The notes under the pieces were generated by a model. That model made no database searches. It saw only the letters and a list, made by a program, of their open reading frames with translations, and was not told the DNA's origin. Position numbers and translations under genes: made by a program. From contig JAHDLB010000016.1 of assembly GCA_018432315.1 (NCBI GenBank), positions 1 to 64,000 of the forward strand: a stretch of 64,000 bases of DNA, in the 5' to 3' direction. Numbering within the stretch: the stretch's first letter is position 1; each line of letters opens with the position of its first letter. This stretch comes from Anaerolineae bacterium. Lineage in GTDB: Bacteria > Chloroflexota > Anaerolineae > Aggregatilineales > Aggregatilineaceae. Positions 29,772 to 34,972 of this stretch are shown here, one piece after another.

Positions 29772-31208
29772 TTACCGCCGCCGCTTGATCACGTAGCCCG
29801 CCAGCCCGACTCCCCCCACCAGCACCCACACCGCGCCCAGGATGCCCAGGCCCAGGATCATCATCTGGCCGTCGTCATCGTCGCCCGGATCGACTTCGAC
29901 CGGCTGCGCGGACGCGGAACCAGGCGGCGTGGCCGACGCCGCGCGCGTGGGCGGCGGATCGGTGGGCGTGCCCGTCGGGGCCATCGCCAGCACCTCGACC
30001 GGAATGGGCGTCACCGTGGGCAGCGCGGGCGGCGGCTCGGAAGGCGCGGGGGCCGCTTCGGTGGGCGGCTCGGTGTCAGCCGGGGGCGCTTCTTCCGGCT
30101 GGGGCACGCTGTCCGCCGGAGCCGCATCCTCCGGTGGAGCCTCCTCCGGCGGCGCTGCGGCGAGCGCTGCATCCGGCTGGGGCACGGTTTCGGCGGGCGG
30201 CGCTTCCTCTGGTGGCGCTTCGTCCGGTGGAATATCTTCCGGCGGCGCGCCTTCGGGGAGTGCTTCGTCGGGCGGGACGTCGCCCGGCTCCGGCGGGATC
30301 AGCCGCAGGACCATGCCCGGCACGATCACGTCTTCACGCGTCAGGCCATTGTAGCCGAGCAGCTCGTCGACGGTCAGCCCGTGCGTCACGGCGACTTCCC
30401 AGACGGTCTGACCCTCGCCGATGGCGTATTCCGCGATGGGGGTGGGGGTGGGCGGCGGCGCTTCGCCGGGGCCCAGCTTGACGATGATCGTGTCGTCCGG
30501 CTTCAGCACGACCGGGCGCTGCAAATTGTTGATGTGCAGCATCTCGTCGAGGTCCACGCCGTACACGGCGGCGATGGCCCAGGCGGTCTGGCCGGGCTGG
30601 ACGACGTGCGTGACGCGCCCGTTGGCGTCCGGCTCGGCGCGCGTGATCGGCACGACGAGCGGGGCGTCGTCCTCATCTTCGTCGGCGCTGCTGTTCGAGT
30701 TCGACCGGCGCGGTGGCGACGGGCGGCCCGCGACCAGCACGTAGACGACGCCGCGCCCGCCCCGCACGACGCCCACGCCGACATGCTGGGCCGACGAGGT
30801 GAGCGTGGCATAGTGGATCGCGCTGTTGCGCCACCACTCGACCGCGCCCGCCGGGGACATGTTGCCGCCGGATACCCAGTTCTCGGCGACGCTGCCCGCG
30901 TACCCCGCCGCCAGGGCGCGATCCTGGGGCGTGGAGCCGCCTTCGCCGGTGTGGCCGTACTGCCCGGTGGCGACCATCCAGTTGGCGTGAGCCTGCGCGA
31001 CGTAGGCCAGGGTGGGGTGAACCGTCCACGGGTCGAGGCCGAGTTCGGCTCGCAGCGCGTTGACCAGCGCGACAACCTGGTCGGCGCTGCCCTGGGCTTC
31101 AGCCGCCTGGGGCGCGCCCCAGGGCGCGACCAGCAGCATCAGCCCGGCGAGGAACAGGGCGCACGTGCGGCGGCGCGCCCGCGAATGTGTCACTATCGTC
31201 GGCAACAA
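29772..31208 (-). CDS. CAP/SCP domain protein with two LysM domains and C-terminal membrane anchor
   Basis: The 478 residues start at a TTG preceded by GAGG. Order: signal peptide (to about 39), CAP/SCP domain (45-165; HANWMVATGQYGHTGEGG and AENWVSGG with the usual His/Glu residues), two LysM-type repeats (about 205-255, THVVQPGQTAWAIAAVYGV; and about 268-315, YAIGEGQTVWEVAVTHGL), a long Pro/Glu/Ala-rich stalk (320-440), and a C-terminal membrane segment (MMILGLGILGAVWVLVGGVG) with a KRRR tail. It should be anchored at its C-terminus and contact the cell wall or glycan through LysM. The CAP domain's role is unknown. Confidence 0.85.
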   Translation of the reverse strand: MLPTIVTHSRARRRTCALFLAGLMLLVAPWGAPQAAEAQGSADQVVALVNALRAELGLDPWTVHPTLAYVAQAHANWMVATGQYGHTGEGGSTPQDRALAAGYAGSVAENWVSGGNMSPAGAVEWWRNSAIHYATLTSSAQHVGVGVVRGGRGVVYVLVAGRPSPPRRSNSNSSADEDEDDAPLVVPITRAEPDANGRVTHVVQPGQTAWAIAAVYGVDLDEMLHINNLQRPVVLKPDDTIIVKLGPGEAPPPTPTPIAEYAIGEGQTVWEVAVTHGLTVDELLGYNGLTREDVIVPGMVLRLIPPEPGDVPPDEALPEGAPPEDIPPDEAPPEEAPPAETVPQPDAALAAAPPEEAPPEDAAPADSVPQPEEAPPADTEPPTEAAPAPSEPPPALPTVTPIPVEVLAMAPTGTPTDPPPTRAASATPPGSASAQPVEVDPGDDDDGQMMILGLGILGAVWVLVGGVGLAGYVIKRRR

Positions 31209-34190: not shown

Positions 34191-34844
34191 ATGGGAGGAA
34201 TGATGCACCACCAACGTCTCTTTACCGCCGCGCCCTTCCGCGTGATGGCCGCGCTGATGGCCGCCGCGCTGCTGGGCCTGATCCTGGCCGCGTGCGGCGA
34301 GGACGAGTCGCCGGACGAGCCAATGCCCGCCGCGCCCACGTCCGCCGCCGGGCAGGACGCGCCTGCTTCGTCGGTGGCGGTCGGCGGGGCCGCGCCGGAT
34401 TTCACGCTGGCCGCGTCGGACGGCAGCCGCGTCTCGCTCGCCAGCTACCAGGGCCAGCCGGTGCTGCTGTTCTTCCACATGGCCGGCGGTTGACCGCCGT
34501 GCCTGCAACAGATCGTCGATCTGGAAAATGACCCCGCCTTTCAGGCGTTGGACGTCGCCATTCTGAGCATCGCCCTCGACCCGGCGGACCAGCAGGCCGC
34601 GGTCAAGCAGGAGTACGGCATTGCCGCGCCGATGCTGACCGATCCCGATGCGACCGTCTCCACCGCGTACGACGTCATGCAGTGGGCGGTGGGCACCGGT
34701 GAACCGGGCCACACGTTCATCCTGGTGGACGCAGCGGGCGAGATCGCGTGGATTCGCGACTACGGCGCGCCGGAGAACGGCGGCCTGATGTACGTGCCCA
34801 TCGAGGAACTGACGCAGCACATCGGGGCGGCGCTCGATGCCTGA
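34191..34844 (+). CDS. thioredoxin-like (TlpA/AhpC-TSA) lipoprotein with in-frame UGA at the CxxC site: candidate selenoprotein
   Basis: Two open segments (34191-34490 and 34494-34844) lie in the same frame, separated only by UGA at 34491-34493. Reading through gives 217 residues. A signal ends in a lipobox (GLILAACG), so it is lipid-anchored. An Ala/Pro linker leads to a redoxin domain: PDFTLAASDGSRVSLASYQG, VLLFFHMAGG, then U-PPC, LQQIVDLENDPAFQ, VAILSIALDP, GHTFILVDAAGEIAWI. TlpA-type enzymes have WCPPC here, so the UGA falls exactly on the nucleophilic Cys (position 101), with the partner Cys kept at 104. A hairpin 16-31 bases downstream could act as a SECIS. Start choice (34191, 34200 or 34203) is uncertain. 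A C-to-A error turning TGC into TGA is the main alternative. Confidence 0.82.
34509..34523 (+). promoter_or_regulatory. SECIS-like hairpin downstream of the UGA codon
   Basis: CAGATC and GATCTG form a perfect 6-bp stem with loop GTC; the loop starts with G, 24 bases after the first base of the UGA (34491). Bacterial SECIS elements lie inside the coding region shortly after the UGA with a small apical loop that has G in its first positions, so this fits. The lower stem is weak. Confidence 0.5.
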
Positions 34845-34972
34845 CGGCGAGCGTGACGCTTGCGTCAATCGACCATGCTGTACCGGGCGGACCTTTGGGT
34901 CCGCCTTTCGATCCCGCCCCCGGCATCCCACCCAAAAATACGGGCGTTTCACGGTTGGAGCGTAGACTATTA

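Follow-up and report, generated by a model that had tools for sequence, protein, structure and literature searches.

An in-frame UGA in a peroxiredoxin-like gene of an Anaerolineae bacterium almost certainly encodes an active-site selenocysteine

Does an in-frame stop codon mark a broken gene, or does it encode selenocysteine (Sec)? This question is raised by positions 34191–34844 (+) of the window, the 64,000-nucleotide stretch of an Anaerolineae bacterium contig analysed here. The ORF listing gives two separate ORFs for this region, and routine gene prediction would enter it as a pseudogene or a pair of fragments. The first-pass annotation had proposed a single gene in which UGA is read as Sec at the nucleophilic position of a thioredoxin-like lipoprotein. 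Sequence and translation agree that two open segments share one frame, that the TGA at 34491–34493 is the sole interruption of this frame and that the closing stop is the TGA at 34842–34844. The read-through product comprises 217 residues, with a signal segment that carries a lipobox, a low-complexity linker and then an AhpC-TSA domain, and translation yields the same active site, FFHMAGG-U-PPC-LQQ, as had been claimed. Our analysis leads us to conclude that the apparent broken gene is almost certainly one intact gene, with the UGA encoding Sec in the active site. Taken as a whole, the reading as a Sec-encoding, membrane-anchored, peroxiredoxin-like redox protein is one we hold with high confidence. 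The features of the locus are as follows.

34191–34844, + strand: almost certain selenoprotein gene, probable start at 34203 or 34200
34194–34198, + strand: GGAGG, a Shine-Dalgarno-like motif, seen directly in the sequence
34248–34295, + strand: hydrophobic core of the putative signal peptide, ending in the lipobox LILAAC
34380–34751, + strand: AhpC-TSA/peroxiredoxin-fold domain (residues 64–187 of the frame from 34191)
34491–34493, + strand: UGA almost certainly read as Sec, the first residue of U-P-P-C
34500–34502, + strand: resolving Cys of UxxC, codon TGC
34509–34523, + strand: SECIS-like hairpin CAGATC-GTC-GATCTG
34842–34844, + strand: true stop codon, TGA
34885–34906, + strand: 9-bp G+C-rich hairpin with a TTTC tail, a possible terminator

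The first ATG of the frame, at 34191, overlaps the GGAGG motif. Because of this overlap the ATG at 34203 (or the start at 34200) is more likely to be the real start, and the starts of homologues agree with this placement. The Sec is residue 101 when counted from 34191 and residue 97 when counted from 34203. At the other end of the gene the stop codon is not followed by the SECIS-like hairpin of the internal UGA, and homologues stop at or near the same place with TGA, TAG or TAA. The possible terminator came from folding of 34870–34925; a consensus terminator scan did not call it and gave one weak match, on the opposite strand. A promoter scan found none.

The PF00578 (AhpC-TSA) match covers residues 64–187 and scores 89.2 bits (gathering score 26, E = 2.7e-25). 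It runs across the UGA, and thus the two halves belong to one domain; a Redoxin profile also matches the joined protein. An AlphaFold2 model, built from an input alignment of 5 rows that drew on proteins of the window and of related loci only, has a pLDDT of 80 overall and mostly above 90 in the domain. The predicted fold is that of a peroxiredoxin, with Bcp4 (Z = 21.1) and AhpE (Z = 20.2) and also Bcp1 among the best matches and a Foldseek match of 3.5e-12, while the solved structures nearest by profile are the peroxiredoxin-like 2ywn and ResA. The lipobox, LILAAC after a hydrophobic helix, was judged by eye from the translation, and the full-length Sec homologues likewise have a Cys following a hydrophobic stretch; the product is therefore predicted to be exported and lipidated at the lipobox Cys. 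The earlier description as a thioredoxin-like, TlpA-type lipoprotein thus holds in part: the (U/C)xxC site is that of ResA/TlpA and the lipobox is present, but the predicted fold is peroxiredoxin-like rather than plain TlpA.

The region after the UGA is under protein-level selection. Over the 115–117 codons 3′ of the UGA dN was lower than dS in all ten pairwise comparisons (dN/dS of about 0.05–0.5), and hence this part is translated and constrained.

A genome that inserts Sec requires dedicated machinery, and the search for selA, selB, selD and tRNA-Sec with a UCA anticodon that the first-pass annotation had called for recovered all four above curated cut-offs in the genome from which the window comes (5.69 Mb in 66 contigs; completeness 99.4%). 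The tRNA-Sec (UCA) scores 75 bits against a cut-off of 47. On contig C35 selB (334.7 bits, cut-off 242.25) is directly adjoined by selA (544.7 bits, cut-off 267.9), and selD scores 363.8 bits against a cut-off of 125. Every component for Sec insertion is thus present. The selD gene (L015:1399-2457, − strand, contig C61 of genome G000) itself contains an in-frame TGA, reading SACAG-U-ASKLAP, at what we take to be the position of the catalytic Cys17 of E. coli SelD, which makes SelD a second selenoprotein of this genome. Among the homologues, every Sec-form genome searched for selA proved to have it; most Cys-form genomes have it too, and its presence does not separate the two.

There are 18 distinct Sec forms including that of the window, the other 17 being 43–70% identical to it, and they occur in Chloroflexota and Actinomycetota. 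All 18 carry TGA at the identical codon. Within the same family the gene is present in 9 of 18 genomes, the window's own included, each time with TGA (9/9); further TGA forms were found in another family of the same phylum (G167), in a Chloroflexi MAG (L042), in an Actinomycetota MAG (L041) and in six other genomes from the same phylum as L041. The more distant homologues, at about 31–41% identity, have TGC or TGT at this codon (22/22) and all keep the second Cys, which does not vary among the Sec and Cys forms aligned. This bears out the earlier claim that the U falls on the first Cys of a CxxC site while the second Cys is retained, and the alignment at position 101 proposed with it showed Sec or Cys and no other residue among the 18 Sec and 22 Cys forms. 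Invariant columns across these sequences include both redox positions, the His of a GHTF motif, an Asp and a Trp. In a maximum-likelihood tree of 41 rows, among them 19 Sec rows of which two are identical, the Sec forms lie on one side of a single branch (support 100/98), and the split was present in all 200 bootstrap trees. Within the Sec forms a second subclade from the phylum of L041 (L045 and L047–L050) has the site FSMGxxUxxC.

Bacterial Sec insertion is directed by a hairpin downstream of the UGA, for which the bSECIS model specifies a stem of 4–16 bp and a loop of 3–9 nt located 16–37 nt after the UGA, with a G at one of the first two loop positions that is often followed by G or U (PMC13188914). 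The window contains a 6-bp stem with a 3-nt loop, GUC, that starts with G-U and lies 21 nt after the UGA. Every one of the 18 Sec forms fits the model at the same place with a spacing of 20 or 21 nt; in the L045/L047–L050 subclade the loop is 5 nt (GGUCG or AGUUG) rather than 3 nt and the spacing is 20 nt. The Cys forms lack a hairpin at this place, and candidate hairpins of at least 5 bp occur in 4 of 22, at scattered positions. RNAalifold recovered the helix unprompted, and every paired cell in the 18 Sec forms is paired (90/90, 100%). Two of the five pairs show compensatory changes: one sequence has A-U in place of G-C, and five sequences, all from one clade, have G-C in place of A-U, so that about two independent events are represented. 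No shuffle equalled the real alignment in paired percentage or covariation score, and when the helix is slid along it pairs at 13–41%. Six Watson-Crick pairs are formed by only 8 of the 288 ways of coding QIVDL synonymously. As the same nucleotides specify a conserved peptide, Q-(I/V)-V-D-L, protein-level constraint could account for part of the hairpin's conservation. The 55 nt that follow the UGA do not fold at a lower energy than shuffles (z = +1.19), and the minimum free energy is −7.3 for 55 nt and −18.2 for the best of 45–70 nt against a model limit of −7.5, a comparison that depends on segment length. Since folding energy offers no advantage over shuffles, it is conservation, geometry and covariation that carry the argument for a SECIS. 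Rfam at gathering thresholds gave no match in the window.

These data bear directly on the readings in which no Sec is encoded. That the gene is a pseudogene or two broken genes, with the TGA a plain nonsense mutation, is the ordinary reading of an in-frame stop and agrees with the two listed ORFs, but it is very improbable given the same TGA in 18 distinct forms from two phyla, their separation from Cys forms by one branch, dN/dS below 1 after the TGA and the full Sec machinery. More improbable again is an assembly or sequencing error in which TGC or TGT was misread as TGA; the codon is known here from the assembly alone, but none of the results favours such an error, and many independently assembled genomes have TGA at the same position. 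If UGA were reassigned throughout the genome, for example to Trp or Cys, the frame would likewise be open, and we consider this just as implausible as a misread codon: this gene and its neighbours end at TGA, the aligned residue is always Cys and a tRNA-Sec is present. The ordinary use of TGA as a stop by neighbouring genes indicates that the code is not reassigned. Reading of the UGA as Sec, as the first-pass annotation had proposed, is thus supported by the machinery, the conserved TGA, the Sec/Cys exchange and the SECIS-like hairpin, from which we infer that Sec is inserted.

As to how the selenoprotein may work, SelB and Sec-tRNA(Sec) would recognise the hairpin just 3′ of the UGA, leading to insertion of Sec rather than termination. 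The product would then be exported and lipid-anchored at the lipobox Cys, outside the cytoplasmic membrane. There the selenolate of Sec101 would act as the attacking nucleophile and Cys104 as the resolving thiol, and the domain would cycle between Se-S bonded and reduced states. Redox activity is presumed, and thiol/selenol-disulfide oxidoreductase is, on balance, its probable form.

The main alternative for the activity is that the same selenoprotein is chiefly an extracytoplasmic hydroperoxide reductase of the PrxQ/AhpE kind, with a peroxidatic Sec resolved by Cys104. The PF00578 and Redoxin matches and the closest predicted fold, that of the PrxQ/BCP and AhpE peroxiredoxins (Z of 20–21; Bcp4, Bcp1 and AhpE), favour this alternative. 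In contrast, the PxxxTxx(C/U) motif (PxxxTxxC in PrxQ/BCP and AhpE) is absent, there being no Pro or Thr in F-H-M-A-G-G-U; every peroxiredoxin NCBIfam model scores far below its cut-off; and the second redox residue is three positions from the first, a CxxC-like spacing as in ResA. We therefore regard peroxidase function as a possibility of lesser likelihood. Sco-like copper handling, in which Sec, Cys and the GHTF His would bind metal, is unlikely. It draws on a weak PF02630 (SCO1-SenC) match (23.3, gathering 22.8), on B. subtilis Sco (1xzo, 1on4) among the profile matches (2e-7) and on the invariance of this His in Sec and Cys forms. Sco proteins carry CxxxC, however, where this protein has UxxC; the PF02630 match spans residues 69–141 only and stops short of the His; the peroxiredoxin and ResA matches are much stronger; and there are no copper genes among the neighbours scanned. 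A fragment search intended to align the GHTF His with Sco returned no match. It is also conceivable, though doubtful, that the Chloroflexota/Actinomycetota proteins form a Sec-only extracytoplasmic lipoprotein subfamily of peroxiredoxin fold with a new activity in place of ordinary thiol-disulfide exchange, such as the repair of oxidised proteins by means of Sec, or the use of the invariant GHTF His to handle a metal.

With thiol/selenol-disulfide exchange as the preferred activity, we compared the selenoprotein with described systems. ResA/TlpA thiol-disulfide oxidoreductases are extracytoplasmic and membrane-tethered. The ResA model NF002854 has CxxC at the same site and matches with 3.3e-11, but the score is 43.4 against a cut-off of 170, and the window's protein has one residue more before the motif and a Sec; GHTF stands where TlpA-type proteins carry the cis-Pro motif. 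The SelL-related redox protein model (NF040769), a Redoxin-like Sec-linked family, matches with E = 7.7e-10 but a score of 38.7 against a cut-off of 120. The UGC-containing (WAxxUGC) TlpA-like selenoproteins (NF041054) share the thioredoxin fold and the resemblance to ResA/TlpA but have UGC in place of UxxC, and their model scores 15 against 300. No NCBIfam model claims the joined protein above its cut-off.

Selenoprotein families are named by domain and Sec motif (PMC9312934), and the published list of prokaryotic selenoproteins (PMC13188914) already contains a kind that combines PF00578 with UxxC: the Prx-like thiol:disulfide oxidoreductases, with PF00578, UxxC or UxxU and the representative WP_010940744.1 (PMC13188914 Table 1; PMC9312934; PMC1088965). 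By this naming the protein, which has the PF00578 domain and the UxxC motif U-P-P-C, belongs to this kind. It shares the Pfam domain, the replacement of the peroxiredoxin TxxU by UxxC and the existence of Cys homologues, and departs from the published descriptions in its lipobox, in its (F/Y)F(H/S)M...UxxC site and in belonging to a separate Sec clade, found in Chloroflexota and Actinomycetota. Three selenoproteins were counted in Chloroflexi in 2006 (PMC1794560), and in open-access papers we found no description of this exact lipoprotein subfamily. The protein thus apparently represents an undescribed, unnamed extracytoplasmic branch of the known Prx-like thiol:disulfide oxidoreductase selenoproteins. 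As the kind is already known the interest of the gene is only moderate, and it leaves current understanding of Sec encoding and use unchanged. What it offers is a clear, testable selenoprotein clade in two phyla, a family in which Sec and Cys forms separate cleanly, and a SECIS that is short and covaries.

Gene neighbourhood gave no pointer to an operon partner or substrate. The surroundings of five homologues (13–14 kb) and the flanks of L041 share only the selenoprotein gene with the window, with the exception of distant histidine-kinase-like matches. In G005 a Pyr_redox_2 (pyridine nucleotide-disulfide oxidoreductase) gene (L064:5465-6844, + strand) is convergent, tail to tail, with the selenoprotein gene; it was rejected as a partner, as it has no counterpart beside the other homologues examined.

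Two further regions of the window were observed.

29772–31208, − strand: CAP-domain and LysM protein that includes a long low-complexity stretch rich in Pro and Glu and, at its C-terminus, a hydrophobic segment
36563–40165, − strand: two AP_endonuc_2 (xylose isomerase-like) proteins flanking a GFO/IDH/MocA oxidoreductase, a cluster that probably serves to degrade a sugar or inositol
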